From the IMG/VR virus record IMGVR_UViG_3300017729_000012, positions 1 through 34,457 of that record: a stretch of 34,457 nt of DNA; one strand, written 5' to 3'. Each line of letters starts with the position of its first letter. Position 1 is the stretch's first letter. A model generated the notes under the pieces. It worked only from the letters and a program-made list of their open reading frames with translations, had not been told where the DNA came from and made no database searches. Below, in pieces: positions 7,038 to 32,200 of the stretch. The position numbers and the translations under genes were made by a program. Origin of the DNA: a virus.

Positions 7038-7048
7038 AAACAAAACCA

Positions 7049-8858: not shown

Positions 8859-8865
8859 GTCCTTT
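8837..8865 (-). terminator. Terminator hairpin inside the convergent gene overlap
   Basis: AAAGGACT (8840-8847) and AGTCCTTT (8858-8865) form a perfect 8-base stem around a 10-base loop. On the minus strand the stem runs into six T (complement of 8837-8842), the form of a rho-independent terminator for the holin transcript. In the plus direction only three T are present, so it is weaker there. It overlaps both stop codons, TAA of the lipoprotein gene and TAG of the holin gene. Confidence 0.65.
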
Positions 8866-12700: not shown

Positions 12701-15481
12701 TCTAATTTTAGCCATGACACCAAGTAAAACATCTCCAGATGTATCCATGTCTCTAGTCTGATACTCTACTCCATCAATATCTGCAGCAAATTCCATGACC
12801 AAATCAAGATCCTCTTTAGTAAAGTAACTTCCTTCACCACCATAATTATTACTGGACTTTTGTCTTACTTGCTCTTGAACGTAATCATATAACGCATTGT
12901 CAACAATACCTCTGTTTGATTTAGACCCACTTAGTGCATTAAGCTGAGTTTGTAATGATAAAATTAAATTTTTCTGTGTATTATTTAAACCAATTAAATC
13001 TGTTAACTCATATAGACCTTTAAATGTTTCTAGATATTTTTCAAAGTGTAATGCATATGATAAATACTCAGGCTTATCAATGTTGTTAGGGTCTTCCATA
13101 TATGCCCTAAATTCTTTTATTTGTTGTAATGCATCCTGTAATACTTCAGATAAAACAACTGATTGTTTTCCGGCATCTTCAGACAATGCAATTGCAATAT
13201 ATGCAATGGTCTTTGATATCTGATCAATCTCTTTCTGCTGTGTAGACTGAATGTAAATACTATTCTTTACTAAAGGTATAAGATCTCTCTTAGCAATTAG
13301 TTTACCCATATAGTCTTCTAGTAGACCAGCATGAATATTATATTCTGTATAGCCTTCTGCATCCTTTTTATCTTGCTCTGTTGTTTCTGTCTTTTCATTT
13401 TTACCATCCCACCTTGCATTGTATGCATCACGTTGTTTTTTGGACAAAGAATCTTTCTTAGCAGAATTTCTTGATATAGGTATTAATTTGTTTACTTTAT
13501 CTAACTGTGTGCTTATTGGATGTGGCTCAATTCTATCATAATTTATTTCACCATTAAATACTTGATCAACACCTTTTCCATCAACACCTACATGGAAGTG
13601 TATGGTTGCCATAGCAAACTCATCATATGCAACTTCATAGCCCATATTCTCAGTCATTCTTCTGTATAAAGCTACTTGTAGATTATGTTGTGCTCTTGTA
13701 GACAACTTAGTTACACCGTGTTCTATCAGTTTACTGTCATTACCTAATGAATATGGAAAATTATATTTTTTAATACCATCATCATTTACATCATCTAGGT
13801 TATTCTTGCTTGTCTTTAAGTCAAAAATTCTAACCTTACCCTTTGCATCAATAATAAAAATATCAGCCATACCTGCTATTTTTGATTCTTCATCAAACAA
13901 TACTACTTGTGATAAAATAAGTGATCCTGTCTCACGGTAGTTTTCTATTATAGAATCTAATGTATCATATACTTCTTTTGCTTTTTCCTTAGATATATTA
14001 TTAGTCTTTAGGTTTTTATATGCAGCATTAAATTTTAAATTTCCAATAACCCCTTCTAATAAAGTATCTACCTCATTACCAATTTCAAGATTCAGCCTGT
14101 GTTCAACTACTTTAGTTGGAGATAATACTCCTTTGATAGCTGTTGTAGCTGATGTATATACATCCTTAGTTTTATTTGGATTATAGTATACATGATCTTC
14201 TTCATTTAATATTACCAGTGTATCACCAGCAGCAGCATTTTTTTCAGAAGCAGAAAACTGATGCACTTGTTCATCGTAAAGCTGAGCTAAATTAAATATT
14301 TGATCTACTATTGGTCTTTGAAGAGGGTTTGCTTTAGCTCTTATTGCTTTTAATTCAGATGCTTTTTCTTTTGATAAGCTATACCTTACATTTCCATTTA
14401 CCCTTTTCTCTAACTTAAATTGTATACCTTCTGTATTTAGCAGTTTTGCAATATCACTCATAGATGTACTAGCTACTATAGCTGACACAGGTAAAGGTTT
14501 ACCTGTCAGATAAATGCTTAAGTTCTCTATAACACTTTTAAACCACTCTAATAATTCACCAATTGCATTTAAGAAACCTTTTGTTGGTTTGCTTTCATAT
14601 TCTTTTTTGAAGTGTCTGGCTAAAGCTTGCGTTACAATTTCTAGGTCTCTTTCAGTTTCACTAAAATTTCTAGATTGATTATTGTATGCATCTTTAATTT
14701 GCTCAGATAGTTCAGGAAAATTAGTTACTGCTTCATCTAATAAATTATTAAACAGTTGTTCATTTTCCATTTTTACTGCATCTATAAAAGGATGCAACAT
14801 TTCTTCAATTGCTATTTCATCAGTAACCCTACCTTTAATTAAGTATGCTACTCCATTATAATAAAAAGACTTAACATTTTTAAATCCTATATCTTTAGTA
14901 TTGTACTTTGGTAAGCTTTCTAATAATACTCTAGCTTGTGCAACTGATATCATTTTTACATTAACCTGTGGAAACATTCTTTTTAAATGCATCACTACAG
15001 CTCTTGATCTATTTGTATCCCATGATCTTGATTTTTCTAATAAATCTCTTCTACTAAATACACTATCAATTGCTTCTATTTTATAGCTTTGTTTTGTTCT
15101 GGTTACACTAAAAGCTGACTCAGGTATATTATTAATTTCTAAATACCTATAAAATCTTTTTAAATTATTTTGCAAAAAAGACTCATCATATAGTAAGGTA
15201 TCAGGATTAGAATTGTTTATAAGAAACTGTCCCGCCAACCTGCTTCCAATTTTTTCCCTTCTTATATTATCAAGCACAGCTTTACCAAAATCTTTTTGTT
15301 GTAAACTAAATGCAATCTTTTGATCAGAAACCATTGCTTTAGCTTGAACAGGACTTGGAAAAATATCAGATTCATTTACTTCTTGCCAATTACTAATAAC
15401 TTGAGAAGTACGTAAATCAGACTTATAAACATCTTTTAATGCTTGATATCCCGGATCATTTCTATTATAACATTTAGCCAT
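9710..15481 (-). CDS. Large virion or ejection protein with degenerate zincin and RecB-like nuclease domains (1923 aa)
   Basis: Probably packed with the RNA polymerase and delivered with the DNA. Residues 226-230 read EEMLH, a zincin HExxH with the first His replaced, followed by EIVTQAL (E281 in the place of the third ligand) and a GELLEWFKSV helix; activity is therefore doubtful. Residues of about 420-660 match the RecB/Cas4 PD-(D/E)XK plan: SQVVLFDEE (524-532), GMAD (D540), FDLKTS (D554, K556), then LQVALYRRM. The usual acidic residue in the SE position is Gln525. The middle is helical and charged. The C-terminal 500 residues include VQFKKWVAPAIRARY and a membrane segment at about 1772-1792 followed by DDDD. 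The gene starts 14 bases after the giant polymerase gene. The overall plan fits large proteins of crAss-like phages near the polymerase; the ejection role is inferred. Confidence 0.7.
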   Translation of the reverse strand: MAKCYNRNDPGYQALKDVYKSDLRTSQVISNWQEVNESDIFPSPVQAKAMVSDQKIAFSLQQKDFGKAVLDNIRREKIGSRLAGQFLINNSNPDTLLYDESFLQNNLKRFYRYLEINNIPESAFSVTRTKQSYKIEAIDSVFSRRDLLEKSRSWDTNRSRAVVMHLKRMFPQVNVKMISVAQARVLLESLPKYNTKDIGFKNVKSFYYNGVAYLIKGRVTDEIAIEEMLHPFIDAVKMENEQLFNNLLDEAVTNFPELSEQIKDAYNNQSRNFSETERDLEIVTQALARHFKKEYESKPTKGFLNAIGELLEWFKSVIENLSIYLTGKPLPVSAIVASTSMSDIAKLLNTEGIQFKLEKRVNGNVRYSLSKEKASELKAIRAKANPLQRPIVDQIFNLAQLYDEQVHQFSASEKNAAAGDTLVILNEEDHVYYNPNKTKDVYTSATTAIKGVLSPTKVVEHRLNLEIGNEVDTLLEGVIGNLKFNAAYKNLKTNNISKEKAKEVYDTLDSIIENYRETGSLILSQVVLFDEESKIAGMADIFIIDAKGKVRIFDLKTSKNNLDDVNDDGIKKYNFPYSLGNDSKLIEHGVTKLSTRAQHNLQVALYRRMTENMGYEVAYDEFAMATIHFHVGVDGKGVDQVFNGEINYDRIEPHPISTQLDKVNKLIPISRNSAKKDSLSKKQRDAYNARWDGKNEKTETTEQDKKDAEGYTEYNIHAGLLEDYMGKLIAKRDLIPLVKNSIYIQSTQQKEIDQISKTIAYIAIALSEDAGKQSVVLSEVLQDALQQIKEFRAYMEDPNNIDKPEYLSYALHFEKYLETFKGLYELTDLIGLNNTQKNLILSLQTQLNALSGSKSNRGIVDNALYDYVQEQVRQKSSNNYGGEGSYFTKEDLDLVMEFAADIDGVEYQTRDMDTSGDVLLGVMAKIRKIQTQKLLDKVSQRESIIRAAGQKLVKLNPGIDLKDLYNFMLEFVEIDGEQVFSGQYVKALSQKYNIKQDKLRSVLSDNEGTWYEYRPVFNLEEALKTKQGREDLKYNIDLANKKRAYSDFFQAEDKDENDKLIDGMYHKYTQEFKNARAKYEVWNPGTEAATRGYWQKRENVPHAEWITYRARYFDRKPYTKANRVNGTPDGTIQIVGEEFDAVRPEYVEAVLEPRNGDSMTNPKYKDIMDPSKTDALSIAQREFYEMYVSMFEEDLLKKIPIGIAADMLGRAPLVMNRLLDQVSNKGTLYSKMYAKAARTKAWNMFKTTQQQKNIQVDNQGYIINQLPIYYTGKPRTDEERASVQKDIDILKGQYKKNKITRDQYKADIAILNGKMSKLMSTPALGQIDTDMASSLLKFSAMAENFETMGQIDDTLNAFVKVIEERTYTPAPSAGLNLVSRTANKVISNIGTKVNRTEQQKNVVRRAKKFMSMVHYDNELVTKGAFDKIADGIIQFSSLSYVAFNPFGNFNNYLIGRLNNNVEALGGRFYSQSAFKRATWEFNKRALPALVQRTSHGGAEDLLDVVTLGVIPGLAKADYNKKLPNNKYEAFVDRFRMMDNMADLREQSSATDGGKSWFDRATEWGYIMQDAAEYNSQTKVGMAILMDYMIEDEGGNALSLYDAFEYDTKTHSNILKPGYKFLIKRDGTKVEWNDDMRYEIRNEIREVNKQIHGNYAKDDRMVLQSHTLGNLAVQFKKWVAPAIRARYQREYFDQNLGWMEGRYRSALSFINYAMKEVFVNQNTHFKTMGKDYMDAQVNFYSNEKYGVDRKYGEGGNMDQRAKNKLFGFYRTMGELGIMFSVMFTSMILDKILRGDDDDTDFEKRLKNLTRYQADRAYKELVLFMPSFAGAKQIDQMANSPIASARSVTEMSEFLEMFIVGNARYGLSKLTGNEEEFLSNSTYVYQRGDRKGEFKVHKNFRDVFPIVYSIQKWKSYIKNADFYIK

Positions 15482-15495: not shown

Positions 15496-18400
15496 TTATA
15501 GTAAACATTTAAGTCTATCTATTAGTTCTTGTTCTCCAAGCTCTGTTTGTGAAAACAAATCTCCATATGCAAACATAGCATCTTGCAAAGAGTTTATGCC
15601 TTGTTCACTCATTTTCTTTTCTGCTTCTGTATTACCAGCAACATTATCAGACCACCATTTCTCAAGACTTACAACCTCACTCATTTCTTCTGACTCAGCT
15701 AAATCTAGCTTTAATTGGTTTTCTTGACTTTGTTGTTCTTCAGTCCTAGTATCTAAGGTCTGTGAGTTATTCTCCATTTCAGCATTAGCTACTTCATCAA
15801 AGGTACCACTTGCTGTCAAATCTGACAAGGCTTCAAGTGCTTTTGCTGTGTCTGCTATATTAGTATTAGCTTGTTCATCATTTTCTTTTACCTCTACACT
15901 GTTATTTGTAACTTCAATAATTGCACCTGGAGTTCTTAATATATCTTGTTTTTGTTGTGTTTCTACAGCACTAACACCAACGCTTGCACCAGCTTCATCA
16001 GTTTGTTGTATTGGTTGTTCTGATCTAATAACATCATTAACTGGAGTATTACTATTAATATTTCTTGTCTGAATATATGTTAATCTTGGACCACCTACAA
16101 AACCGGCAGCAAATTGCTGGTTAGATCCCATTGATGGAACTAATCTATATACAACTTTTCCATCTACAACATCTGCTTCCTCATCACGTTTAAAGAGTTT
16201 ATATGTTTTAGACATAGCATCACTAAGGTCTAATCTAAAGTAATCAATCATTTTACCATTGTCTTCCATTTCATCTTTGATATAGACTACTTCTTCAACA
16301 GGAAGATACTCAACATCGCTTGTCTTATAGTTGCGTAGTATAGGTCCTGTTGGATTAGATTCTAGGTAACCCTCTTTAAATTCTTTTATAAGTTCTTCTT
16401 TTGTTATACCAAATGCTTTCTCATAAGGTATAATTCCTTTTAATGCTAGTTCAACTGTATTTACATTATTAAGATACTTCTCCATAACAAAAGGACTCAT
16501 TGCTTTTAATAAAGAACCATACTTTAATTGCAAGCCGTCTTTAACCATCATATAATGAAGAATAGATATTGCTAAATCTCTTGTTTCCAATCCACCATAT
16601 AATTTTGCAAAGGAGGTTTGAAGGTCAATCAAGTTTGCTGCATTTAATCTTCTCCAAGTATTTGAAGTAGCTATGTTTAATCCTGTAGTATTTCCATTGT
16701 CTGTTGCATACTCAGTTCCTACAAATGAATCTAAAAAGAAATTACTTTCTTCATTGTTCTCTGACCTTCTTGTTTTTTCATCTCTTATCATTTTAACAAT
16801 AGATAAGTCTGCTTCATTTATTGGACCAGGATAAATTAAATTATTTGTAACCGGTGCTGCATTGCTAGAACTATTGTTTAGCAAATGTTTATAGCTCTTT
16901 ATTGTTAAGTAAGAAAGTAAATCTTGTTCTACCTTTGCTGCAGTATCAAATCCAAATTTATTATTATCAATATCTAGATTATCATTAACCGGACTTAATA
17001 TTTCTGCAAACTCTGGAGACATTGTTAAAAGAACATTTGGTAATAAATCTTGGTAAATCTGACTAAAGACTTTAAGGTTAGTACTTTGCCATGTTTTGCT
17101 TTTAAAAATTGAAGTAACATCAGCTTGAGCATCTTTTCCAAACAGCTCTTGTAAGTCTTTAATGTTCTTCTTAGTAGTTGGAACATTTTGAGGCAACCCT
17201 TGTGATAACACAACTGCGGGTCTCATTTTTGCAGTCCAGTTTTTTATTTTGTTTAACCTACTAAAAGCATATAAGATTTGTAATCTCTCATTATCACTTA
17301 AATCCTTAGTACTATCTACAGCTTTTACTAGTAAATCTTTATTTACTTGGGCAAACTTTACTTTTCCATTTTTATTTTTTTCTTCTGTTACTTTTGCTTT
17401 TAGAGATGCTATTCTACTATCAAGTAACATTTTTAAATTTGGAGATGTATTATCAACTTTGTTCTGAGATAAGTCATATAAATCTCTAACTTCAGCAGAG
17501 TTTAATAAAAGCAATGTTGTTTCTAAAGGTATACCCAATGAAATCATATTAGCAGCCATACCTACAGCATGTATATTTAATCCTAACTTAGATATGAACC
17601 TTTCTTTAGCGTTATCTGTTTCCATTGTAACTAAAGAAGAAATTATATCTTGCTTTCTTTCACCGTTTATAATCTTGCCTCCAAAACCATTATAGGGAAC
17701 ATTACCTAGTTTAAAAGGTTTAAATAGATCAATATTGTATTCAGTTAATAAATTAAGATATACGTTAGGTAATACTACAGCACCAATAGCTGCTCCTTTG
17801 TTTGCTTCAAAAGATTTAATCATACCAGTCAGTGAGTCTACATCAACAGGAGAATCTTGTCTATCCTTAAAAAGTTGTATGTCTGGATTAGCTACAAGGT
17901 TATTAAATGCAGTCTTTAATACTTCTATATCTGCCGCTTGATATGCAATAGGTAAATCTTTTTTAAGATCTTGTTGAACTAACTCTGTGCCTGTCATACC
18001 TTCATTACCAGCAAGTGCATAATTATAATCTAAAATTTTATTATTTAATACTGCCTCATTAGGGTTGCCATGCTTTTCAACATAGTCAGTAAACTGTTTT
18101 TTTGTTGCTGGTAAGCCAAGCATTAAAGCAGCTCTTAAAGAATCTTCATTAAATTTATTCTCACCTTCTTGATCAGTCAATCTATTCATTTCTTGCGGTG
18201 ATAAAGCATTATCCATTCTAATAGCAAGCTGATCATTATTAAACATTGATGCAGCTTTATTATAAACTGTATCTGGTTTAGCTGTTAGGTTATTTATATT
18301 TTTAACATACTCTGTATATGGATCACCTTGACCAAACTCTATAAAATTATTATTATCATCTAAATAATATTCTTTAATTTTTGCATATACTTTATCTATA

Positions 18401-21400
18401 TCAAAATCTGCACCTGATACTTCAACTATTTCTTTAGGAAATATAGCAGAAGAGCCATAATAAGCAGGTAGAAAATCTACAATCTTTATGTTTACAGCAG
18501 AGTGTTTATCTTGAGTTGGTATACGTACACCAAACATCTTAGATATAGCATCAGGAATTTTAGCATCTGTATTAGCAATTAAATCCATTACATTCTTATC
18601 CATTGCCGGCATAACAACTTCACTATATCTTTCACCAGTTTTAGTAGATGCATCAGCAGGATTAGTATAACCCATTAGCCCTGTTCTTAAAACATCTAGA
18701 ATAACTATACCTTCTGGATAAACACCATCTCCTGGAACTCTATCTGCAAAGTCTCCTTTGTATTGACTTTCTCTTAATATTTCAGATCTTACAGGTATAC
18801 CATTTTTAACTTCATATACTTTTCTATAATATCTAGTACCAAAAGATGATACTAAAGCTAGCGCTGTACCAGGAACTTTTTCTCTTAATGTACCTTTACT
18901 AAAATATGAAAGAAATAGTTGTTCATACTTCTTAGCTGTAAAAGGATTATTAAGATTAAACTTTTGTTCATTTTTATCTGATGTAAAAAACTCTAATAAA
19001 TTTGATGCTGAGCCAGATGCCTTTAAAGAATTTTGTGCATAGTCTAAAAATGCTCCAAGATTAGGTGTTATAGCACCTTTCTTTTTAGATAATTTAAATT
19101 CATCTAGTGCTGTATCAAAAGTAAATACTAGGTTTCTTTTATTTTTATATTTTAATATTACTCTTTGTGATGTTGCAGCATTATATAATCTTCTAACATC
19201 ACCAACGTTCATTGTTTCACCTTTTTCATTTAAACCCAGTCCAGGTATTTTAACTGTATCATCTTGTTCAGATGTAATTATATCCTTAATCTGAGTCATG
19301 TCAGTAATTTCCATCTTATTGGATGGCTGAATAACTTGAAGCCCCAAGTACTCTGTACTTAATTTAGTAGATTTTAAATTCTGACTTAAATCAAAACCGC
19401 TTGAGTCATCATTTAATTTGTTTACAGTATTCTTCATCATCTTTACAGCTGATAATGGGGCAGCCATAGCAAAGTTTTTATTGGCTTCCTCATTGGCTTC
19501 CATTTGCTCACGTAAATAATGAAGCTGCTCTTTAGTTGGTTTAGGTTCCCACTTACCTAACTCAGCATTATAATTAGATGTATACTCTTTTGTTAAGACA
19601 GTAACAGACATTTTAACTGCTGTTTTACCATCCATGTAAACATACTTTTTAGAATTTATAAGTTCTTGTTTTTTTGCAAGACCTATAGGTTTGTCTTCAG
19701 TTCCAAATATAGCATCACTGTTTGGTGCTTGTCCAATGTCAAGTGTATCATACATGCTAGCCATAGAAGGACTTAACCTACCAAAACCAAATGTAGCATA
19801 CCTTGATCCTTTAGTTGTAATATATGCTTGTGCATCTGCACTATCAATATTATTACCTGTTAAAGATGATTGCTCTGTTATTTCATCAAATACAAACATA
19901 TCAAAGTTTGTACTTGCATGATTTATTCCAAGTTCAGGTGCAGACAATACACTGTATGCACTATAGTATGCGGCATTATTTAACTTAGCTCTTTTAACTT
20001 TATCAACCATACTTTGCAGTGTCATTGCTTGATCACCTAGTAAAAGGTCATTAATAGAAGCTGAGTTAATCCAGTTATTAAAAAATATCTGTTGTAGGTT
20101 ATGAGATTCATTGGTGTTTAAGTTTAATTGACTACCAGCTAAATCAACCATAGTTCTAGCAACTCCTTGACCTATAGTCAATCCTTGTCTAACTTGAGTT
20201 GATAAATTATCTTTTACTTTTAGTTTTGTAATTAATTCATTAAACTCTTCAAATGCTCCATTCAAACTTGAAGTAACTTCATTTTTTATAGTTGATCTTG
20301 ACACACCTATAGCTAGCTTAACACCTTGATCAAAAGTCATTACTTGTTTTTGCTTACCTGCATTAATAGCTACATTAGCTAGTGTTTGTTGAGTAATAGG
20401 ATCTAACAATAATCCTGTGTTTGCAAAACTAAATGCTCTACCTTGCATGGAGTCATTATATCCTTGAATATCACCACCAAGCTCACCAAAAGCAATAGCT
20501 TCTCTATTTATCCTTTCAAACTCTGAAGCTATTCTATCTATAAACGCATTTACTAGTTGAGGAGTAAGCTCAACGTTTTCACCTTTCATAGTTACAGCTT
20601 TTATTACAGGCAAACTTGTTAAGTCTCCAGTATTAGCTGCTTCCATTACTCTTAAAAATACAGGTGCTGTTGCTATAGGTAGCTTTCCAACACCTTCTAC
20701 TGAATCTACTTTACCTGTTCTTCTGTTAAAATTAGATACATAATTATTAATTAATGATACAGCAAACTCTTTTGGTGTAAACTCCCCAAAGCTTTGTGTA
20801 GACTTACTATCTTCTAAAGATGTATTTAATATATCTTCTGCAACGCTATCATTAAGATCTGTTGTAACAATAGATTTAATTTTGCTACCCGCAATTCTAG
20901 TTACTTTTATTCTACCTTGAGATGATAAATTTCTAAATGCCTCATTATTTAATAAATAATTATTGCTTAGATATTCATCATTTGATAGTTGATCTATTTT
21001 TTTTGGATTATTTAATGCAGATATTGCTTTTAAATGATAAGTTGGAAGTTGATGACCATAAACTAAATCACCATTTGGATTAATAAATGATGATGCACCA
21101 ATTGATTCATCAAAGATTGCATTATTTAAACTTATATAAGTAAGTCTAGATGCCATACCATCTGATTTCTTAGAGAAAATATTATCATCTCTATACATAA
21201 GATCATATAGAGTTACTAAAAACTGCTCAGATATAGGCTCAATAGAGTAAGCGTTATATAATATTTTTTGCTCTGGATCTAATTTAGCATAATCAAAAGT
21301 CTTAATGTAACTATAGTTTAAATACATTGGACTTAACCTTATACCTGTTAGATCAAATAATTTTTGAGAATGCTCTCTAGCTTTCTCATCACTCTTTTCA

Positions 21401-24400
21401 CTAGTTAAGTATTTGGTTTTGTCACCTAAAACAAGAGACATGTTTTTAACTAAGTCAAGCAAGTCATCAATTTTTTGACCAGACTCATCTAAATTCATTT
21501 CTTTCCTCTTAGTTATATAAGCTTGTGACCACTCATCTAATTGTGAGTTAATATCATCACGTTCTGAGGCAGTGTATATTAATATGTTTCCTGCACCATC
21601 TCTTTCATTAAATATATAATCTACTTTATAGTTTTCAAAACCTTTAACTATTGACTGCAATAGACTAGCATTGGTAACATTTATAAAAGGTGATTCAGAA
21701 GACAAAGACTTTATATCTAGATTTGCATCATTAAATAATTTGTCAACTACTGCTGCCATATTAGGATTTAACCTAGAGTATGAATACATACGTCTAAGCA
21801 TAACAGCCTGATCACTTATATTAGATACAGCTTTTAGTAAACCATTATATGCTTCATTAAATTTAACAGGAACAATTAATGGTTCTCCTTCCGTTAATTC
21901 TGTCTTACCAAAAAAGTCTACATCTTTCATTGTTGAAGTAGCAATGTAAGACCTCACCTTTTTAGTTAATGAATTAAACCCTCCTATCTCAGATGCATCT
22001 TTGTCAAATTCATCTGCTTTTCTTAATCCAGTTGAATCTTCTTCTGCTTCTGATTTAAATTCACTCTCATTATCTTGATCTGATATTATATTAATTAAAC
22101 CAAAAACCTCTTTCTTTATATCTTCAGGGTAATTAGTAAATGCATCCTCTAATTCTTCAAGTTGTTTTATTTTTCCTGCTCCTAAAATTTTATTGCTAGC
22201 ATCTTCTGGATCAAGTAAAATTCTAAAGTCACGTGCAATACTCTTATAAACATCTTCAGGGTTATAGCTTTCTTCTTCTAAGTTATTAACTCTAGTTATA
22301 AACATACCGGCCATTGATCTAATTAATGGATCAATTACCATTGAATCAACATATAAAAACCCTGATACATTCTCATCTTTAGATACCACATCGTGTCTTA
22401 CCAATGCATTTGCAACAGTAATTCCAGCATCTGATGTGAATTCATTTAATTGTACAGTTGCACTTTTAAATTTACCAGCATCAATATTTTCATACAATGT
22501 TTGTAATTCATTAGGGGTATACTTAGATAACACACCTTTAATCCACTCAATTATCTTAGTAAAGAATGATTTAATCTCTGTGTTAGTCTTAGTACTTCTT
22601 GGGTCCTTTTTAAATGCTTCAAACTCATCAGCCAAGTATTCTTCTATAAACTCATTCTCTAATTCAATATCAGAAAGATCTTCATATTGTTTTGCGGTTG
22701 TTCTAAATTTTTCTAATTCAGCTTTATACTTTGAACCATACTTGCTTTTTAATTCTGACTTACCAAGTTTTCTATATCTATCTATTTGTTCTTGTGTAAG
22801 TAGCATTCTAAAGACACCATGAAATGCTTCATGATATTTAAAAGGATTATTAGCACCAACATATACAGTACCGTTTACACTTACCCCTCCTGCTATCTTA
22901 TGTATATCTAAAACAAAAGCACCAACTCTTTTATAACCTTTAGTTATGCCATTATCTGCTAGAGTAAGTACATCTTCTATACCTATTATAGATGGTAATG
23001 ATTCATTTGCCCAATCTAAAAACTCATTGTAGTCTTCTATTCTCTCTACTTCAGTAGTTGCTTCAACTAATTTGTTTGCTGTCTTAGAAAGTTTTTTAAC
23101 TATTGCAAGTTGTTTTTGATATTCTTTGCTTTCATCTAATGCATCAATTTTAGCTGCACCTTTTAATCCTTCTGTTAGTGTAGCTTTTAGTTCTTTAAGT
23201 TTAGCTTTTTCTTTATCTAGTGTTGTCTCCTTTGTTTTTTCTTGTGGTTTAAGACTTCCTATGCCACCTGCAGCAGCAACACGTAAATTAACCCCATTAG
23301 AAATAACAGGGTTATTCATCATTTTTTCTTCTGCTTCATTTAGAGGCTCTCCTCTAAGCATTTTATTTATTATATGCTCAATGCCTACAGGATGACCTTG
23401 AAAATCATTATCAATTCTAGATATTAATTCTTCCTCTGACATATCAAGAACACTGTCATCAGACTCTTCAGATATCTCAGGTAGTGCTACTTCTTCTTCA
23501 ATTCTCTTATCCTCATTCTTAGGTCTAACACTTGCAAATGCCACAGCTTGTTGTGCTAGTATTGCATCTGACTCAGCAGAAAGAACTAATGAGTTGTCTG
23601 TTACTACTTCAATTCCAACTTCAGTTGTACTCTTATCTACTATATCTTGAGCAGGGGCACCTGATGCAAAAGACTTTCTTATATTTTTGTCTCTTACTTG
23701 TGCATTATTTGCAGCAACTTTTTCTAATTTATTATACTTAGTAATTAAACTTTCTACTATTTTAACGGCACTTGTATCTGAATTAACAACAGGAAAGTCA
23801 ATGCTTACAGATTCTATATTGACTATCTCTTCTCCTTTTTGTTGATCCAATTGAATAAATATACTTCCATCTTGCCCAACTTTTAAATCAAGAAGATTTC
23901 CAGGATAACTACTTAAAAATAATTTATCTGATAATTCTTCATTGTATTTAACAGCCGCAGCATTTCTTTTGAGATCATCTTTTATTGCTTGAATTTCTTT
24001 AGCTTTATCAACAATCTCTACAAAAAGAGCTTCTTTTTCTTCTTTTGTATATGTCACTGCTTTAAGATTAACTAAAGCATAAGTACCATTTGGTAGCTTA
24101 ACTGCAGCAAGATATCTATCTGTTCCTGCTAGCAAACTATCTCTAGTAATTCCTTGTTTTTCTAATTGATTTAGTACTTTATTCTTTAAATCAACTTCAT
24201 CAGTAGCAGATGTGGTATAGTTAAATATTCTACCACCTTGTTTTTTATCATACTTTAAATCAAATATAAAGTAGTTATTATTTTCATCTGCATATTGATA
24301 ATCTAATGCAGGCATATAAACAGGGTTACCTTTACTATATACAATCCTTCCTCCTTTTGAATCAAGCTTTATATTAAAAGGTAGATCTTTTATACTAAAG

Positions 24401-27400
24401 TATTGTTTCTCTTCTGCTACTCCAAGATTATTAAATGTTGTAGTAAGCATAGAGTTTAATGTAAATGCTTTTTGAATTTCTTTTAACTGTTCTTCGGTAG
24501 TTATACTTTTACCAAATGGAGTATACATTACATTCTGAGCTTGTCTTAGATTCATTGATCTAGGATCTACATTAGCTCCTGTTAGTTGATCTTTAATTAA
24601 AAATGAAGCATTGTTCATATATGCAAATATTCCATCTGGTGAATCAGAAGGTTGTATTTTCTTTTCTAATAGTTTTTGATTTATCCTATCTTGTGTTACA
24701 GTATTATTAATTCTAATACCCACAACATATTCACTACTATATCTTTTAATTAATGGGTTTGAGCTTTTATATTGATAACCAGACATATTCTGAACAGAAT
24801 ACTCTTTTACAGTCTGTGGATTTGGATTTCTATATACAACAAACTCTAACTGTTCTCTTTCAGCTGGTGTCAACTCTTTTAGTATAGCTTTAAGTCTTTC
24901 TTTGCCTTCGGCATTTTCATATGTTAAAGCTTGTGCTATTTGCTCATCTGATAAACCTTTCTTGTCAGATCTATTTGCATGTGCATAAGGAGACAATAAT
25001 GATTGAATGTCTAACTTACTAACTGAGTCATCTAATACATCCATTGTTATTTCTTCAACAGAAAAAACATTCTTAAACTCTCCTTGTTTTATATATTCAA
25101 ATTTTCTTGTTGATATAGGCCCAACATTATTAGATTCTTTAATTACTCTAAGCTTTTGATTTTTACCAAATTTCTTTGAGCTGTTGGGTTTTTGAATTAT
25201 AATATACTTCTCACTTCCTTTGTAAATAGACATTCCATAAAACAAACCACTAACACCATCAAACTCAAAAGTTGTTGAATCAGGAGCTTGATCATCAAGA
25301 GCAGACAAAGCATCATAAGCTGTAGCAGCAGCATTTTCATTAAACGTACCTCTTGTTGATTCAAATTGTTGATCAACAAAATCTAATAAATCTGAACTTA
25401 ACTTGTTTCCTTTTTTATCTAGCAACTCATAAATAGTTATAGGCTCCTGTCCAGGAACTTTTACTACTCTTTTATATAAGTCTGCTATAACACCTTCCTT
25501 TAAAGGTTTTTCAGTAACCTCAATATTATCAGCAACATCAGGCTGCTCATATATATCATCTAACTTAACAGTTGTTTGATTTAATATAGAAGTAATTAGT
25601 GGGTTTTCTGCTAGTAATTCTTGTTTGGGTGTAGATAAAAAGTCTTGAAACCCTGTGTCAGAATCAACAAGTGATTGCTCTATAGGGCTTGTATATACAG
25701 TTTCACCAGCTGCATTTTTTGTCATTGTACCTGCAGCCCATACTTGCTTTATAGCATTAAATACATTCTTTAGCTCCTGCGCTTCAGCAGAGTTTTTCCA
25801 CTCTTGTACAGATAAACTTGTTTTACCTGCTGCAGCCATTCTTGATTTATAACTTCTATAAGATCTCCTCAGTACCTCATCAAGATAAGGACTTATAGTT
25901 ATTGTATCAACAGTTAATTTAATACCTGCATTCTCAAGCATTACATCTAAATCGGATTTCTGCTCATCAACATCTTGTCTTTTTGCTTCATCCTTTTCTT
26001 CTTGAGTTATTTCTTCTTCACTAGTCTGATCTGTTTTTGTAGATTTATAAACATTTATCAGAGACTGTATCATTTTAAATTTTATATCATGAACACCCTC
26101 AACAACTTTACCGTTTTCATCATAAAAGTCTATAAGAAAGTCTGCATTCCCTGTCTGTAAAAAAAGTACCATCTGTGCTTCATCTGCATATGCACCAACT
26201 GGATCTTTAGCTAAATCATTTATTAGTTGATTTGCTAAAGTAATATCAGTATATTTCTCTAGAGCTGCTTTCATTTCTTTTGCTCTTCCCTCTAGTCTAT
26301 TCTTAGATAATGCTTGAGATCTTTCTACCATCTCAGCAAACTTTTCAGGGTTATTCATAAACTCAATAGCTTTGTCATATACTTTTGCTCTATTATCTAA
26401 AGCATAGTAATCAACTATATCAACTAGTGCAGCATCAATGTTATCTTCATTTACAAATGAGCCTTGCTCTTTAGCCAAAAATCTTACGTAATTTTTAAAC
26501 TCATTTCTTAAGCTATCTTTTAATGCTTTGTTTCTTTTAAATGTACCATTCTTAAATCTATTCTTTTTATCAGTAACAATCTTTTGAATAGCTTTAAGTC
26601 TTGTAATTTTTTCTTGCTTTGGTGATGATGCAGTTGGCGCACCTTTTACACTAGCTCCCTCAAATGCATCTATTTCTTCTTGAAGGATTACAATCTCCCT
26701 CTCAATTGATTCTGGGTCAAGTAAAGTAGTAATATCACTTGCAGCCATTTTTGCAAACAAAGGTTCTGCTTCAAGCTTTGAGTATATCCCATCAGCTCTA
26801 CTAACTGCAGACATAAAACTTTCATTAGTAAACATGTATAAATAACGTGCATGATCATATCCAGCCCTTGCAACTAACTCATTTATATATTCTTTCTCTT
26901 GTGTCTTACGGTTGAATTTATTTTCATCAAAAGGATTTACATATTTATCTTTAAGCTTATTATAATTTTCTTCCATCTTATCCATTTGGATAATGGTTTC
27001 ATTTATACGCTTTCTTAACTTGCCATCCTTTTTATCTTTATTACTAACACCAGGGAATGCATCAGCTAATTCAGTATCAGTCATATCTAAGAAACCTAAT
27101 AACTGATCTCTAAAGTGTCTTGTTCCATTTGTTTCAAACATTGTAAAAAACTGTTGAAACTTAGCTGCATCTTCAGCATCTTTAAATCCAAAGAAATCTT
27201 GTTGATAAGCAGACTTCTTCATTTTTTCAGCCATTTCCTTTTGAATCATAAAATTCAATCTGTTGACATCAAACAACTCTGATGGATCTATAGCTTGCTC
27301 ATTCCATGATTTATTATAAGAGTCAACAATTTTTTCAATCATTTCATCTCTTGTTTTTCTAAACTCAGCAAATGTTTCTTTTTGTTTTGCCGTAGCTAAA

Positions 27401-29268
27401 CCAATACCAGCTTCTTGCAATCCATACTTATATATAGAAGGCACACCCTGCATAAAAGCTCTTTGTACAGGCTGTACAAGACCACCCATTAAAAAACCAG
27501 ACATAAATACATTAAATCCTTCACCAGAAAACTGATCACCCATTGCAGATAGTATCATTTGATTCTGTAATGCAACACCACCTTGTGCTGGATTTTGTAG
27601 TATTTCTGTATAATAACCAACAGTAGCTGCAGATATTGCTTCTTGAGAAACCTCTTGAATACCTTCAGCAACATTAGCTGCAAAGTAATCTAACATAACT
27701 ATACCACCACTACCAGCAACACTTTTCCATCCACCCGCAGCTTTAATTTTTGCACCTAGTCTTTTAAGACCTAAGAAACCTTTTTCTTTTCCTCCTAAAT
27801 ATTTAAAAGGGTTTTTAATTACTTTACCCGCAGCATCAACTACTTTTTTACCTGCTGTATTTATTACATTTTTAGCAATCCCTTTACCAAATGCTGAACC
27901 TATTGTACGCTGAATACCTCTTTGGAAACCACCTAATGCATTGCCAAGAACTAACCAGTTACTTGCATATATTATTGGTGCATTGGCCATCATTGTTTTA
28001 AATGCAGCTTGATCAGCAGCATTATTTATTCTAGCCATCTCATATTCATCAACACCCTGACCACCATTAGCAGCAGCGTAGTTATTCATACCATTTTTAA
28101 GTACTTGATTATATGCCATACCAGCTTCTAACTTGCTCTCAGCCATAGCTAAATTAACAGCTCTCATATCTCTATAAAAACCACCAAACTTTGCATTCAT
28201 CTTAGCAAGATTACTCATATTTTGACCAGCATTTTTTGCAGTCTTAATATCTCTAAATGCTTTTACTGTATTAGGTGTAAAACCTCTACCAAGTAAATTT
28301 CCTGCAGCTTTTAATCTTTCACCGCCTTTAGCAGCAACCCAGAAATCTCTAGCATTTTCAATTGCTTTAGCTTGCTTTAATATATCTCTTGTACGTTCGT
28401 ACATTTTTGTGAAACTAAAAAAGCCTTTAACACCTTTAACAACGTTTGCACCTGTCTTAGCTATAGTAACTGGTGCTGCTGTACCTCCTGAAAGTGCTGT
28501 AACACCCGCTAACACTAGCTCTTCTGCAGCAATAGATATAAGTATACCTCCTGTATATGCAGAGTTAGCTGCTAGGTTATTCATAAACCCACCAAAACCT
28601 CCTCTGGTAGAATTCATTATACCCATCTTGTCTTCAAAAGCTGTAGCTGAGTCAAGATCTGGCTCAAGATAATCAGAACCACTAAACATAGATCCATATA
28701 CAGAACTTAATCCTGTACCAACTAATGACCACCAATTACCTCTCATTCTGGAAAAGTCATCATAAATTGTAGAATTTGCATTATAAAAACTTTCCATATT
28801 AGAATATGGAGAATATCCTAACTTATCAAACTCAGGATGTTCAAAATATCTCATAAACTGAGTTTGCCTCATTCCTGTAAATGCAGGGGCAACTTTTTTT
28901 TCTGATACAGGTGTATCATTTAAAGTCAATAACCTCTTCGTCATTGAAAAGGTGTTCTCAGTATTATCAGGTCTGCTTTGAGTAACAGGATTATATGTAT
29001 CAGTAGCAGGACCGGGATCAGCTATACCTAAACTTGCCATAGCACCCACACCATACTTATCTATTGCTGCTGTGTATTCATTAACACCTGATATATCATC
29101 AGCTGCTAAATCACCGCTCATAGCATAATTATTAAAATTCTCTTCTGGAGTTTCAAATAATTCTTCAATAGGTTCAAAACGGAACTGCCCATCAGGTATT
29201 ACACTTGGGGCAGGTCTTTCAGCTTCTCTATTAAGTTGTTGTAATGGTGTTTTAGATTCGTTTTCCAT
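15496..29268 (-). CDS. Giant virion RNA polymerase polyprotein with zincin domain (4590 aa)
   Basis: About half a megadalton. The likely role is early phage transcription by a polymerase carried in the virion, as shown for gp66 of crAss-like phage phi14:2. Order: an acidic start; hydrophobic or Gly-rich segments at about 233-270, 430-465 and 518-600 (including ANVAEGIQEVSQEAI) that could cross or perturb a membrane; long charged helical stretches; a zincin with HEAFH at 2146-2150 and EEYLADEF at 2209-2216; a beta-like barrel candidate around SAVKMMK (K3276, K3279) and QVIQPSNKM; and a beta-prime-like barrel with R3582-IPT and VSGADFDIDK, the metal-binding DFDID at 3621-3625. Compare NRAPT...NADFDGD of cellular RNA polymerase. 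The last 190 residues are acidic. It is one uninterrupted frame, far longer than the 2180-aa gp66, so it appears to fuse parts that are separate elsewhere. Polymerase call is strong; domain limits are rough. Confidence 0.85.
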   Translation of the reverse strand: MENESKTPLQQLNREAERPAPSVIPDGQFRFEPIEELFETPEENFNNYAMSGDLAADDISGVNEYTAAIDKYGVGAMASLGIADPGPATDTYNPVTQSRPDNTENTFSMTKRLLTLNDTPVSEKKVAPAFTGMRQTQFMRYFEHPEFDKLGYSPYSNMESFYNANSTIYDDFSRMRGNWWSLVGTGLSSVYGSMFSGSDYLEPDLDSATAFEDKMGIMNSTRGGFGGFMNNLAANSAYTGGILISIAAEELVLAGVTALSGGTAAPVTIAKTGANVVKGVKGFFSFTKMYERTRDILKQAKAIENARDFWVAAKGGERLKAAGNLLGRGFTPNTVKAFRDIKTAKNAGQNMSNLAKMNAKFGGFYRDMRAVNLAMAESKLEAGMAYNQVLKNGMNNYAAANGGQGVDEYEMARINNAADQAAFKTMMANAPIIYASNWLVLGNALGGFQRGIQRTIGSAFGKGIAKNVINTAGKKVVDAAGKVIKNPFKYLGGKEKGFLGLKRLGAKIKAAGGWKSVAGSGGIVMLDYFAANVAEGIQEVSQEAISAATVGYYTEILQNPAQGGVALQNQMILSAMGDQFSGEGFNVFMSGFLMGGLVQPVQRAFMQGVPSIYKYGLQEAGIGLATAKQKETFAEFRKTRDEMIEKIVDSYNKSWNEQAIDPSELFDVNRLNFMIQKEMAEKMKKSAYQQDFFGFKDAEDAAKFQQFFTMFETNGTRHFRDQLLGFLDMTDTELADAFPGVSNKDKKDGKLRKRINETIIQMDKMEENYNKLKDKYVNPFDENKFNRKTQEKEYINELVARAGYDHARYLYMFTNESFMSAVSRADGIYSKLEAEPLFAKMAASDITTLLDPESIEREIVILQEEIDAFEGASVKGAPTASSPKQEKITRLKAIQKIVTDKKNRFKNGTFKRNKALKDSLRNEFKNYVRFLAKEQGSFVNEDNIDAALVDIVDYYALDNRAKVYDKAIEFMNNPEKFAEMVERSQALSKNRLEGRAKEMKAALEKYTDITLANQLINDLAKDPVGAYADEAQMVLFLQTGNADFLIDFYDENGKVVEGVHDIKFKMIQSLINVYKSTKTDQTSEEEITQEEKDEAKRQDVDEQKSDLDVMLENAGIKLTVDTITISPYLDEVLRRSYRSYKSRMAAAGKTSLSVQEWKNSAEAQELKNVFNAIKQVWAAGTMTKNAAGETVYTSPIEQSLVDSDTGFQDFLSTPKQELLAENPLITSILNQTTVKLDDIYEQPDVADNIEVTEKPLKEGVIADLYKRVVKVPGQEPITIYELLDKKGNKLSSDLLDFVDQQFESTRGTFNENAAATAYDALSALDDQAPDSTTFEFDGVSGLFYGMSIYKGSEKYIIIQKPNSSKKFGKNQKLRVIKESNNVGPISTRKFEYIKQGEFKNVFSVEEITMDVLDDSVSKLDIQSLLSPYAHANRSDKKGLSDEQIAQALTYENAEGKERLKAILKELTPAEREQLEFVVYRNPNPQTVKEYSVQNMSGYQYKSSNPLIKRYSSEYVVGIRINNTVTQDRINQKLLEKKIQPSDSPDGIFAYMNNASFLIKDQLTGANVDPRSMNLRQAQNVMYTPFGKSITTEEQLKEIQKAFTLNSMLTTTFNNLGVAEEKQYFSIKDLPFNIKLDSKGGRIVYSKGNPVYMPALDYQYADENNNYFIFDLKYDKKQGGRIFNYTTSATDEVDLKNKVLNQLEKQGITRDSLLAGTDRYLAAVKLPNGTYALVNLKAVTYTKEEKEALFVEIVDKAKEIQAIKDDLKRNAAAVKYNEELSDKLFLSSYPGNLLDLKVGQDGSIFIQLDQQKGEEIVNIESVSIDFPVVNSDTSAVKIVESLITKYNKLEKVAANNAQVRDKNIRKSFASGAPAQDIVDKSTTEVGIEVVTDNSLVLSAESDAILAQQAVAFASVRPKNEDKRIEEEVALPEISEESDDSVLDMSEEELISRIDNDFQGHPVGIEHIINKMLRGEPLNEAEEKMMNNPVISNGVNLRVAAAGGIGSLKPQEKTKETTLDKEKAKLKELKATLTEGLKGAAKIDALDESKEYQKQLAIVKKLSKTANKLVEATTEVERIEDYNEFLDWANESLPSIIGIEDVLTLADNGITKGYKRVGAFVLDIHKIAGGVSVNGTVYVGANNPFKYHEAFHGVFRMLLTQEQIDRYRKLGKSELKSKYGSKYKAELEKFRTTAKQYEDLSDIELENEFIEEYLADEFEAFKKDPRSTKTNTEIKSFFTKIIEWIKGVLSKYTPNELQTLYENIDAGKFKSATVQLNEFTSDAGITVANALVRHDVVSKDENVSGFLYVDSMVIDPLIRSMAGMFITRVNNLEEESYNPEDVYKSIARDFRILLDPEDASNKILGAGKIKQLEELEDAFTNYPEDIKKEVFGLINIISDQDNESEFKSEAEEDSTGLRKADEFDKDASEIGGFNSLTKKVRSYIATSTMKDVDFFGKTELTEGEPLIVPVKFNEAYNGLLKAVSNISDQAVMLRRMYSYSRLNPNMAAVVDKLFNDANLDIKSLSSESPFINVTNASLLQSIVKGFENYKVDYIFNERDGAGNILIYTASERDDINSQLDEWSQAYITKRKEMNLDESGQKIDDLLDLVKNMSLVLGDKTKYLTSEKSDEKAREHSQKLFDLTGIRLSPMYLNYSYIKTFDYAKLDPEQKILYNAYSIEPISEQFLVTLYDLMYRDDNIFSKKSDGMASRLTYISLNNAIFDESIGASSFINPNGDLVYGHQLPTYHLKAISALNNPKKIDQLSNDEYLSNNYLLNNEAFRNLSSQGRIKVTRIAGSKIKSIVTTDLNDSVAEDILNTSLEDSKSTQSFGEFTPKEFAVSLINNYVSNFNRRTGKVDSVEGVGKLPIATAPVFLRVMEAANTGDLTSLPVIKAVTMKGENVELTPQLVNAFIDRIASEFERINREAIAFGELGGDIQGYNDSMQGRAFSFANTGLLLDPITQQTLANVAINAGKQKQVMTFDQGVKLAIGVSRSTIKNEVTSSLNGAFEEFNELITKLKVKDNLSTQVRQGLTIGQGVARTMVDLAGSQLNLNTNESHNLQQIFFNNWINSASINDLLLGDQAMTLQSMVDKVKRAKLNNAAYYSAYSVLSAPELGINHASTNFDMFVFDEITEQSSLTGNNIDSADAQAYITTKGSRYATFGFGRLSPSMASMYDTLDIGQAPNSDAIFGTEDKPIGLAKKQELINSKKYVYMDGKTAVKMSVTVLTKEYTSNYNAELGKWEPKPTKEQLHYLREQMEANEEANKNFAMAAPLSAVKMMKNTVNKLNDDSSGFDLSQNLKSTKLSTEYLGLQVIQPSNKMEITDMTQIKDIITSEQDDTVKIPGLGLNEKGETMNVGDVRRLYNAATSQRVILKYKNKRNLVFTFDTALDEFKLSKKKGAITPNLGAFLDYAQNSLKASGSASNLLEFFTSDKNEQKFNLNNPFTAKKYEQLFLSYFSKGTLREKVPGTALALVSSFGTRYYRKVYEVKNGIPVRSEILRESQYKGDFADRVPGDGVYPEGIVILDVLRTGLMGYTNPADASTKTGERYSEVVMPAMDKNVMDLIANTDAKIPDAISKMFGVRIPTQDKHSAVNIKIVDFLPAYYGSSAIFPKEIVEVSGADFDIDKVYAKIKEYYLDDNNNFIEFGQGDPYTEYVKNINNLTAKPDTVYNKAASMFNNDQLAIRMDNALSPQEMNRLTDQEGENKFNEDSLRAALMLGLPATKKQFTDYVEKHGNPNEAVLNNKILDYNYALAGNEGMTGTELVQQDLKKDLPIAYQAADIEVLKTAFNNLVANPDIQLFKDRQDSPVDVDSLTGMIKSFEANKGAAIGAVVLPNVYLNLLTEYNIDLFKPFKLGNVPYNGFGGKIINGERKQDIISSLVTMETDNAKERFISKLGLNIHAVGMAANMISLGIPLETTLLLLNSAEVRDLYDLSQNKVDNTSPNLKMLLDSRIASLKAKVTEEKNKNGKVKFAQVNKDLLVKAVDSTKDLSDNERLQILYAFSRLNKIKNWTAKMRPAVVLSQGLPQNVPTTKKNIKDLQELFGKDAQADVTSIFKSKTWQSTNLKVFSQIYQDLLPNVLLTMSPEFAEILSPVNDNLDIDNNKFGFDTAAKVEQDLLSYLTIKSYKHLLNNSSSNAAPVTNNLIYPGPINEADLSIVKMIRDEKTRRSENNEESNFFLDSFVGTEYATDNGNTTGLNIATSNTWRRLNAANLIDLQTSFAKLYGGLETRDLAISILHYMMVKDGLQLKYGSLLKAMSPFVMEKYLNNVNTVELALKGIIPYEKAFGITKEELIKEFKEGYLESNPTGPILRNYKTSDVEYLPVEEVVYIKDEMEDNGKMIDYFRLDLSDAMSKTYKLFKRDEEADVVDGKVVYRLVPSMGSNQQFAAGFVGGPRLTYIQTRNINSNTPVNDVIRSEQPIQQTDEAGASVGVSAVETQQKQDILRTPGAIIEVTNNSVEVKENDEQANTNIADTAKALEALSDLTASGTFDEVANAEMENNSQTLDTRTEEQQSQENQLKLDLAESEEMSEVVSLEKWWSDNVAGNTEAEKKMSEQGINSLQDAMFAYGDLFSQTELGEQELIDRLKCLL

Positions 29269-29279: not shown

Positions 29280-32200
29280 TTATTTTTTACCATAAATAGC
29301 CTGATCCTTTTCTCTCAAAGCTTGGTTATTTCTTCTTATCTCTTCATACTGAGCTTTCATAGCCATCATCTGCTGATCAATACCCATTAAACCATTTCTA
29401 AAATCCATTTGTATAGTACCTGAATCTGTAGTATACTCAGTATAATTTTCTGCATCAGGATCATAAGGATTATAATAATTTACATTATAACTAAAATTAT
29501 AATCACCAGTTCCATTTTTTATAACTCTATACTCTGCAGTATTAGTTATACCATTATCATTAGGAATTGTATAGTCATGATAGTTATTATTATCTCCACC
29601 TAATATATCTATTTCTGTTGAAGAATAATAATCATTCTTTTTAGCTTTAACGTTCATATCATCTTGTTGATCATAAACTAAGAATATACCACTCTCATTG
29701 TTGTCTGTACCAACACCTTTTAATTTCTTTATGTCTTCTGTTGTTAATGAACCATACTGTGAATCTTTTGGCCCTTTAACTTTAGATGCTAGCCATTCTG
29801 GACTAAACTTAAGCTCATATCCTGCATGAGTTTTATCTCCTACTTTAGCTTTGTCATACACAGGCATATAAGCTAATGTCCCTATTGGAGCTATGGCATC
29901 TGTGTTAGATCTCTTAGGATTATTAATCCACGTATTTAAATCTTCTATCCACAAATTATAGACTTTTAATGCTAAATCATTTTTTTGTTCTAACTCACTA
30001 TCCTTACCTAATGTACCAACACCCATTCCAAATGTAGAGTTGTTAGCTTGTAAAGTTTTAATTTGATTAATCATGTTAGCCATTTCTTGCTCATTGTCAG
30101 CATTTCTTGCTAAAGGATTAATAGCATAGTTATATGTAGGATTACTTACAACATCAGTAAAGCTTCCATCAATACCATATCTAGCAGAATTAAAATCTCC
30201 TGAATTTACATTAGCATCTAACTGACCTGTAAGTCTTTTGTTTAATCCTTTTTTAATTGCATCATATACCATACTTGCTTCTGATTCAATTGCGGTATTA
30301 TCCATCATCATTGCTCTAGAACCATCCTTATTATATCTTGGAATTTTCGTAACACCACTTGTTTTGGACGCAGGGTTAATTTGTAAATCATAAGCAGGTA
30401 CCATATAATCTTTATTATTAGTTCCAACATCTACTTTCCAATTTAAATCAACATTGGTAATTGTACCATCCTCAACACCTTTCTTAACCAAAGCAATATA
30501 CTCAGTTTTATTTAAAGGTATACCGTCTTTAAAAATGTTTGGGAAATTACCATTATCCATTAAGTTTTTAACATGCTTATTTTGTTTTTTAACATTAACA
30601 GTAGTAATATTATTTGCTTCATCAAATTTTTCATATGCTGTTGTTACAAATTGTTCTACACCTTTTATCTGAGTGTTAGTACCATTAATACCATTCATTT
30701 TTTGATACAACGCATCATACTGATTTCTTTGATCTTTTGATAATACCATATTTGGATTATCTAAAGCCTGCTGTCTAGTGTTTGAAAACTGTTCATTTTT
30801 GTCACTATATATTTTATTAATCAAATCTCTATTAACATAACCAGTAGATTCCCCGTCTTCATTAGTAGTTTGTTCTAATAGTTTTGTTTTTATTTCTGAT
30901 ATAGATCCTCTAAATTCTTTTTGTTCTCCATTTTCTCCTGTTACAGTAATACCATAAGTTTGATCCTCACTTTCATTGTCACCTCTAGGATTCATCAAAC
31001 TCATCATGCTAACAATATCATTTACTTGATTAGCAGCTAATTTAGTATCAGCTTCTTGAAATTGAGTTTTAGTCCTTTCAATCATGTCAGTATTCTGGGT
31101 AACCTCATTTTTTTTATTAGTGGCTAAATCTATTGTATTACCATCACCCAATGTTGTATAGCCAGAAGATAGTGCATCACCAAGCGGACTGTTTATACCA
31201 GTACCTTCTAAGTCACTTTTATATTTTTCAAGGTCAAGTCTGTTTTGTTGTTTAACTTTCTCTAGGTTGAGAGCATTAGCAGCATTAGCTCTAATCTTGC
31301 TCATGTCATACTTGAACTGTTTTTCTTTTAAAGCATATGGGTTGGCATTCATTTCATATTCATAGTCTCTTGCGCTAAATGCTTGTGCAGATTCTCTCAT
31401 ATCATTCATGATATTATTCTGCATAAGCATACTATATGCTTTATTTAAAGTATTATTTAATGTTTTACTAGGTAAAGCTGCTTCTTCTCTAATTCTTTTT
31501 TTAGCTTCTAGTGCTGCTTTAAATTGTTCTGTTCTTGATAATTGTTCTGTATTAGCATTATCAAGTTGTGAGCCTTCTATTATACCATTAGCACCTTTAT
31601 AGTTTGCCCAAGAAACATTAGCTTTTTCTGCTTTAGCTAAAGCTTGCATATCTTGAGCTATTCTAAGTTCATTAATACCTTCAATTCTTCTAATTGTTTC
31701 AGAAGCCCAAAGCTCTTGTCCTTGCTCTAAGTTAGCTGCTCTACCTTCTTTAACTGCAGCTGTTGCCCAATCCATACCTTTTACATATGCTTCTGTTTGA
31801 TATGCAGCTTGTACTCTTGGATGTTCCATAAGTCTATTTCTGATTTGCTGTAATGCAGCACCAGTTACTTGAGCACCATTTTGTTCAGTAATTATCCAAT
31901 CAGAATTTATAATTTCTTTTGGGTTAGTTGCAGATATAGGCTTATTAGGATTATATTTAGGATTAGGTTTTTTAGCAAACCTATCTCTTTTCATTTTTAA
32001 AGGTGGGTCCATGTTCTCTAATAGTTGCTGACCCATTTCAAATAAGTTAGCATCAGGAACATATTTTGGAAGAGCCATTTGCATAGCTTTATCAGGACTA
32101 GCATTAATAAATGCATCCATTTGATATTGCATTGCTCTTTCTCCTGTTTTCCAATATTTACTTTGTACACTTCTATCAGGTGAATTCAGCAATAAATTTG

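Follow-up and report, generated by a model that had tools for sequence, protein, structure and literature searches.

A fused head, zincin-like and RNA polymerase chain in a crass-like phage, and the terminal cysteines found where such chains are split

The locus and its giant frame

The window, by which we mean the whole stretch of DNA analysed here (a virus record of 34,457 bases), carries on its minus strand a frame of 4590 aa and 512 kDa that opens with an ATG (15496..29268; start codons here and below are inferred). Translation, HHalign, fold matches and comparison with relatives show a single fused chain, made of a head, a zincin-like motif, a two-barrel RNA polymerase and a C-terminal cysteine. 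An earlier sequence-only reading of this DNA had pointed to the 4590-codon frame, giving no strand, and to three motifs within it; the frame is present, and the translation has SAVKMMK (including K3276), RIPT from residue 3582 and VSGADFDIDK at V3617-K3626, exactly where that reading had put them.

It is very unlikely that the long frame is an assembly error, because residues 3000-4100 recur at 100% identity in two further contigs, one of them of 115.8 kb, and because YHE[AG]FH and DFDID lie within a single frame in 72 of 81 IMG/VR relatives of the same clade, gathered from two scans. In seven of the others the contig ends before one of the two motifs; that leaves two true exceptions, L027 with a break in the frame near residue 3250 and L056 with a different head. 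The DNA covers both motifs in 74 environmental relatives, with the same order of parts in 72. Polymerase frames with stops or frame changes were seen in L027, L077, L185, L186 and L191, each in a single contig, and could be real splits, introns or sequencing errors. A DNA-level search of a phage collection with the frame gave no match, nor did tblastn with residues 1-1433, and scans of PHROGs and Pfam assigned no family to the giant proteins.

Next to the frame lies a gene for a gp49/g065-like RNA-polymerase-associated protein of 1923 aa (9710..15481, minus strand), whose C-terminal third matches annotated RNA-polymerase subunits by tblastn (best E 1e-23). On the other side, an ORF of 1094 aa devoid of cysteine (29280..32564, minus strand) is probably a smaller cargo protein, judging from gene order and a position like that of crAss001 gp46; the two ORFs upstream of the giant frame had no match by tblastn. 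The window also encodes the small and large subunits of ribonucleotide reductase (6057-8674, plus strand) and two holin-like ORFs (3391-3855 and 8848-9261, both minus strand). Downstream of the gp49-like ORF, at a distance of about 0.8-7 kb, 14 of 23 clade records have a thioredoxin-like ORF, for example at G006:80722-80955 and G011:64322-64579; in 10 of the 14 it scores above the Pfam cut-off.

Queries from phi14:2 matched homologues of TerL, major capsid protein and portal in 18, 19 and 18 of the 23 clade records, some of them fragments, and these homologues indicate a Crassvirales-like phage. Misses of the TerL and capsid queries say little, because the known members cr110_1 and cr127_1 were also missed. 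In a TerL tree, where branches are very long, the window clade falls outside the four named families that were sampled.

Domains of the fused chain and their arrangement in relatives

The second half of the chain contains a gp66-type polymerase (residues 2308-4094; 16987..22347, minus strand). An AlphaFold2 model of residues 3000-4100, made with 39 sequences (pLDDT 79.4, pTM 0.80), has the phi14:2 virion polymerase 6VR4 as its top PDB match (Foldseek E 1.9e-27), with Z 17.9 over 783 residues at 3.5 Å covering gp66 814-1831, and QDE-1 and RDR2 entries come next, at Z 10-14. From window residue 2308 on, a second model, of residues 1990-3100 (pLDDT 76.0, pTM 0.61), aligns with gp66 106-887 (E 1.7e-14, Z 19.1, 535 residues, 4.6 Å), so that the two models together span gp66 residues 106-1831. 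HHalign against four Steigviridae polymerases gives E 7.7e-33 over 856 columns. The likeness to gp66 is far above chance, and the two-barrel crass-type polymerase that had been proposed around the named residues, with phi14:2 gp66 and QDE-1-like enzymes as its expected kin, is borne out by both HMM-HMM and structure comparison, the fold being of the gp66 type. The same proposal had left about 3000 residues ahead of the barrels; the part equivalent to gp66 is preceded by about 2200-2300, with gp66 residue 106 aligning to window residue 2308. A profile search of PDB sequences with the polymerase as query did not have 6VR4 among the matches listed, and it was the fold search that found it; a T7-type single-subunit polymerase fold was not among the matches listed in that fold search, where 6VR4 was best.

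The catalytic motif DFDID (residues 3621-3625; 18394..18408, minus strand) is invariant across the 39 aligned sequences (D3621, D3623 and D3625) and aligns with that of gp66. RIPT (residues 3582-3585; 18514..18525, minus strand), of which R3582, I3583 and P3584 are likewise invariant, aligns with RIPN of phi14:2 gp66. For the beta-like barrel, candidate lysines are found in KMMK (residues 3276-3279; 19432..19443, minus strand), where K3276 is invariant and K3279 nearly so in the 39 sequences; from this conservation, K3276 is plausibly a lysine of that barrel.

Ahead of the polymerase, residues 2083-2271 (22456..23022, minus strand) form a zincin-like region with HEAFH at 2146-2150, which HHalign relates to the crAss001 gp47 group (E 9.4e-10). 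HE[AG]FH is conserved, and E2209/E2210, which we considered as a third zinc ligand, are invariant. The zincin announced by the sequence-only reading therefore stands as a motif in open frame with the polymerase, and its fold is less clear, as the fold search with the large model (residues 1990-3100) had no zincin among the matches listed. The model has pLDDT below 50 at its residues 265-297, and this low-confidence stretch (residues 2254-2286; 22411..22509, minus strand) is likely the linker, which would place the junction between zincin-like region and polymerase near it.

The head had been called membrane-active. Of this claim there remains one modest hydrophobic stretch at residues 241-269 (28462..28548, minus strand; Kyte-Doolittle up to 1.84), present in the window and in 16 of 16 relatives examined, which hints weakly at such an activity. 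Comparison by HHalign of residues 1-2080 with the heads of gp47, Suoliviridae, Intestiviridae and phi14:2 g067 gave a best E of 0.0099, which is not significant. Indirect support for a common origin comes from two relatives: L056, where the polymerase of the clade, from the place of window residue 2992, follows a head matching cr110_1 gp39 (E 1e-9), and L219, whose head matches crAss001 gp47 (E 1.4e-25). Homology of the window head to gp47-type heads is only suggested by the profile comparison. The L056 chain (L056:4784-14665) appears as a head swap, and YHE[AG]FH is absent from it.

We found that the arrangement of these parts varies among relatives. In the Steigviridae examined, head/zincin, polymerase and gp49-like part are three separate proteins. 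The length of the polymerase chain in Intestiviridae and Crevaviridae leaves room for the gp49-like part as well; the annotation of the p-crAss-like record states this fusion, and the others are judged by length. Suoliviridae have zincin protein and polymerase in one chain, like the window, and a single HHalign alignment of the window clade with cr1_1/cr118_1 extends over both zincin and polymerase (E 9.8e-32). The fusion, which had been taken for an unusual arrangement, is therefore shared with deposited gut Suoliviridae (cr1_1 gp76, 4551 aa; cr118_1 gp14, 4946 aa) and with the 72 of 74 environmental relatives mentioned above. Together with Flavobacterium phage Fpv3, whose polymerase is part of a 4287-aa chain, the deposited Suoliviridae rule out that it is unique. 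According to a review, crass polymerases reach about 6000 aa (PMC10136315), and a giant ejected polymerase with a zincin is described for N4 (PMC5512222, PMC12633501).

In Fpv3, an isolated phage, the order of gp32 (L151, 33939-46802) is permuted, with HExxH at 4065 after the polymerase motif DYDID at 3116, and its C-end matches the end of cr110_1 gp39. The giant zincin-polymerase genes of the Suoliviridae cr4_1 (L033), cr53_1 (L148) and cr125_1 (L150) have 38, 40 and 78 in-frame stops, as expected for a recoded stop codon.

Facing cysteines at unfused boundaries

The 4590-aa chain has one cysteine, C4588, third from its C-terminal end (15505..15507, minus strand), and the 1923-aa gp49-like protein also has one, C4 (15470..15472, minus strand). 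Eight other proteins of the window have 20 cysteines in 2703 residues (0.74%); at that rate 34 would be expected in the giant chain, and scarcity of cysteine throughout the genome is ruled out. The end of the polymerase ORF is present in 78 of the 81 clade loci, which form 46 clusters at 95% identity. A lone cysteine lies within the last five residues of the polymerase chain in 45 of these clusters (in the exception, L077, the frame is broken, and the other frame carries a terminal cysteine at the same place) and within the first six residues of the gp49-like protein in 44 of 44. The 78 clade chains hold 77 cysteines in 335,704 residues, and the tails of 49 upstream ORFs of the clade none in 14,547 residues.

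The same pattern extends across crass-like phages: facing cysteines flank the boundaries between head/zincin, polymerase and gp49-like parts where these are unfused, and are missing where they are fused. In the 11 named phages in which head and polymerase are split, a cysteine is found in the last five residues of the head (11/11) and at the N-terminus of the polymerase (11/11), the latter in cr110_1 and the p-crAss-like record at an MSC that lies a few codons downstream of the annotated start. In the 13 with polymerase and gp49-like protein split, the polymerase has a cysteine at most nine residues from its end (13/13) and the gp49-like protein one within five residues of its start in 12, the exception being bajarodcaudo virus, where it is at C16/C23 of the annotated ORF. 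In crAss001 the facing residues are C2339 of gp47 (262 kDa) and C5 of gp50 (277 kDa), then C2404 of gp50 and C5 of gp49 (154 kDa). Outer ends lack such cysteines (0/5 ends of polymerase-gp49 fusions, 0/11 head N-ends, 0/12 gp49-like C-ends). Leptolyngbya phage Lbo-JY46 (L040), a cyanobacterial phage outside Bacteroidota, also has a gp49-like protein and a terminal-cysteine pair: of two neighbouring giants, the first has its single cysteine as the final residue and the second has its own at residue 4.

For a second scan, eight named polymerase cores served as queries and the best 80 of 465 relatives were taken. A motif-bearing ORF is present in 77 (not in L168, L182 and L232), and 71 loci remained after dropping six copies or close kin (L187, L192, L201, L203, L210, L233); L185 and L186, whose polymerase frame is broken, were omitted from the polymerase/gp49 tallies. 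In these loci from the best 80 of 465, where the head is split the polymerase has an N-terminal cysteine in 32 of 32, and the upstream giant has a C-terminal one in its last 12 residues in 25 of 27 and in its last 35 in 27 of 27; where the head is fused, the chain has an N-terminal cysteine in none of 29 and the preceding ORF a C-terminal one in none of 25. The polymerase/gp49 boundary has cysteines on both sides in 58 of 58, and the outer C-end of the gp49-like protein in 1 of 53. Other ORFs of the same loci give a background of 13% (N-terminal pattern 23/181, C-terminal 29/218), and internal cysteines number 49 in 201,539 residues. The corresponding Fisher p is 4.6e-18 for these best 80 of 465 and treats loci as independent.

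Since that test ignores the kinship of loci, switches on a tree are a better measure. With near-copies included, the N-terminal cysteine of the polymerase is present in 46 of 46 split-head rows (35 from the scan, that is from the best 80 of 465, plus 11 named) vs 0 of 53 fused-head rows (32 from the scan, 17 of the window clade, 4 named). A polymerase tree (FastTree, with some long branches) has nine switches of fusion state, eight of them forced by supported branches, and the cysteine pattern follows fusion state across all nine, with no exception in 99 rows.

The strongest single case for the rule is L219, where head, polymerase and gp49-like part form one chain of 5006 residues, whose tail matches gp49-like proteins (E 1e-36), and which has no cysteine at all. 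L224, a fusion of polymerase and gp49-like part with its 5' end cut, likewise has none in 3668 residues.

Some choices were made after seeing the data: the terminus windows (5-6 residues for the clade, 12 for the second scan and tree), the head cut-offs (2150/2400) and the start pattern M.{0,4}C, which replaced M.{1,4}C as L156 starts with MC. Among the literature matches listed we found no report of cysteines or disulfides in crass cargo proteins, a point that Drobysheva 2021 or Yutin 2018 could mention. PMC10172136, whose virion mass spectrometry included one reduced and one untreated sample, describes disulfides in the tail and in the gp57 dimer, with the word cysteine absent from its text; in the text of PMC7886860, PMC12633501 and PMC8954989, figures aside, neither cysteine nor disulfide appears.

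A possible coupling of virion cargo and comparison with known systems

That cysteines face each other at split boundaries and are missing at fused ones suggests that selection maintains covalent continuity all the way from head to gp49-like end. Its polarity, from upstream C-terminus to downstream N-terminus, would give one N-to-C string, which fits the exit proposed for crAss001 gp45, whose passage through constrictions of less than 50 Å is held to run N to C (PMC10172136); the same study reports inter-subunit disulfides elsewhere in crAss001 virions.

We consider it probable that the 4590-aa frame, with its gp47-type head, zincin-like region and gp66-type polymerase, is the leading car of a crassvirus cargo train, linked by cysteine to the gp49-like protein and ejected N-terminus first. 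The chain would be packed in the capsid, leave through the tail partly unfolded and start early transcription. C4588 would be joined covalently, most likely by a disulfide in the virion, to C4 of the gp49-like protein, which the first chain would pull behind it. The reducing cytoplasm of the host would then release the coupled chains; by analogy, a disulfide is the simplest link that we can infer, and one expected to open there. In split-head relatives a similar pair of cysteines would join head and polymerase, for which a peptide bond would substitute in fused ones, and the near absence of other cysteines would prevent mispairing during threading. As a general account, the evidence leans towards the giant early-transcription proteins of crass-like phages being a train coupled head to tail by disulfides, threaded N to C through the tail and uncoupled in the host, with fusion and cysteine coupling interchangeable. 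Such interchangeability would account for the ease with which these genes fuse and split. Weighing against coupling are the internal cysteines of gut lineages (C1334 in crAss001 gp50, and several in Suoliviridae, Intestiviridae and Crevaviridae), unpaired ones in smaller cargo-type proteins (C856 of 857 in the p-crAss-like record, L146:3081-5654; the N-terminal C5 of Fpv3 gp30, L151:29912-31708), the C16/C23 of bajarodcaudo virus and the background of 13%.

The pairing rule requires contact only, so it would also follow if the cysteines marked head-to-tail contacts of another kind, for example through a shared metal ion or a transient mixed disulfide to a thioredoxin-like protein helping to load or pull the chains, and thioredoxin-like ORFs do occur in 14 of 23 clade records. 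However, a single cysteine on each side would make a poor metal site, no thioredoxin was found in the six named crass-type records searched, all of which obey the rule, and ribonucleotide reductase, the usual partner of thioredoxin, also has its genes near the block in the window; we regard such contacts as unlikely, though worth keeping in view. If the cysteines instead joined like proteins into dimers (gp47-gp47, gp49-gp49) or were tags for capsid packing, the lone C-terminal cysteine of the p-crAss-like cargo protein, which has no partner on its neighbour, would be accounted for. Neither role would explain the joint absence of the two boundary cysteines where the genes are fused (0/29 and 0/25 in the best 80 of 465, and L219) or the outer ends, which lack them (1/53 in the best 80 of 465; 0/11 and 0/12 in named phages), and we find both roles quite improbable.

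The zincin-like motif immediately before the junction raises another reading, in which the fused chain is a polyprotein cut by its own zincin before packing, with head and polymerase travelling separately; there is a proposal that polyvalent phage proteins process themselves, although, according to the same source, the N4 virion polymerase is packed uncut despite a zincin (PMC5512222). Split relatives join this very boundary by cysteines and fused chains have none there, so that a cut between zincin and polymerase before ejection would unlink the head; the fused chain is thus expected to travel intact, and we give the polyprotein very little chance. Many of the split genes lie within tens of bases of each other, and the cysteine codons might instead be a DNA or RNA signal at gene junctions, uninformative on proteins. 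But the equally tight junction between cargo and head genes is without cysteines (0/25 in the best 80 of 465; 0 in 14,547 residues), and in crAss001, cr85_1, cr128_1 and DAC15 the gp47-type gene lies on the strand opposite to the polymerase gene and both keep their cysteine; this rules out a signal in the DNA, and we lend the reading as a whole next to no credence.

For some of the most abundant viruses in the human gut, it is puzzling how proteins of 150-500 kDa pass out of the capsid through constrictions of less than 50 Å without losing their order or each other. The terminal-cysteine rule offers a reason for the near lack of cysteine in these proteins, predicts from sequence alone which giants travel together, and is testable in phages already cultured. 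If true, disulfide coupling would be a reversible, redox-gated delivery of multi-protein cargo through a narrow pore.

The closest known counterpart, phi14:2 gp66 (6VR4) with g067 and g065, shares with the window the two-barrel fold, the DFDID and RIP motifs, the gene order and cysteines only at termini that face a neighbour, but has three separate proteins and a g067 without HExxH. Suoliviridae (cr1_1 gp76, cr118_1 gp14 and kin) resemble the window in that a single chain of 4491-4946 codons holds both the zincin motif and the polymerase, with a C-terminal cysteine and a separate gp49-like protein bearing an N-terminal one; they differ in that they come from the gut, a few cysteines lie inside their chains, TAG codes for an amino acid in some, and their deep TerL placement is apart from the window clade. 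Intestiviridae and Crevaviridae (the p-crAss-like record, cr110_1, cr271_1, cr127_1) share the three parts with the window and have facing cysteines at the boundary that is left open, but there the polymerase is fused to the gp49-like part and the zincin protein is separate.

Coliphage N4 gp50 is a giant ejected polymerase that, like the window chain, carries an HExxH of its own, and its fold presumably differs from that of the window polymerase. Its domain order is also another, and gp50, gp51 and gp52 have no cysteine, hence none at their termini; avoidance of cysteine may thus be general to ejected proteins and coupling a feature of crass-like phages. For N4, threading by unfolding has been proposed (PMC12633501).
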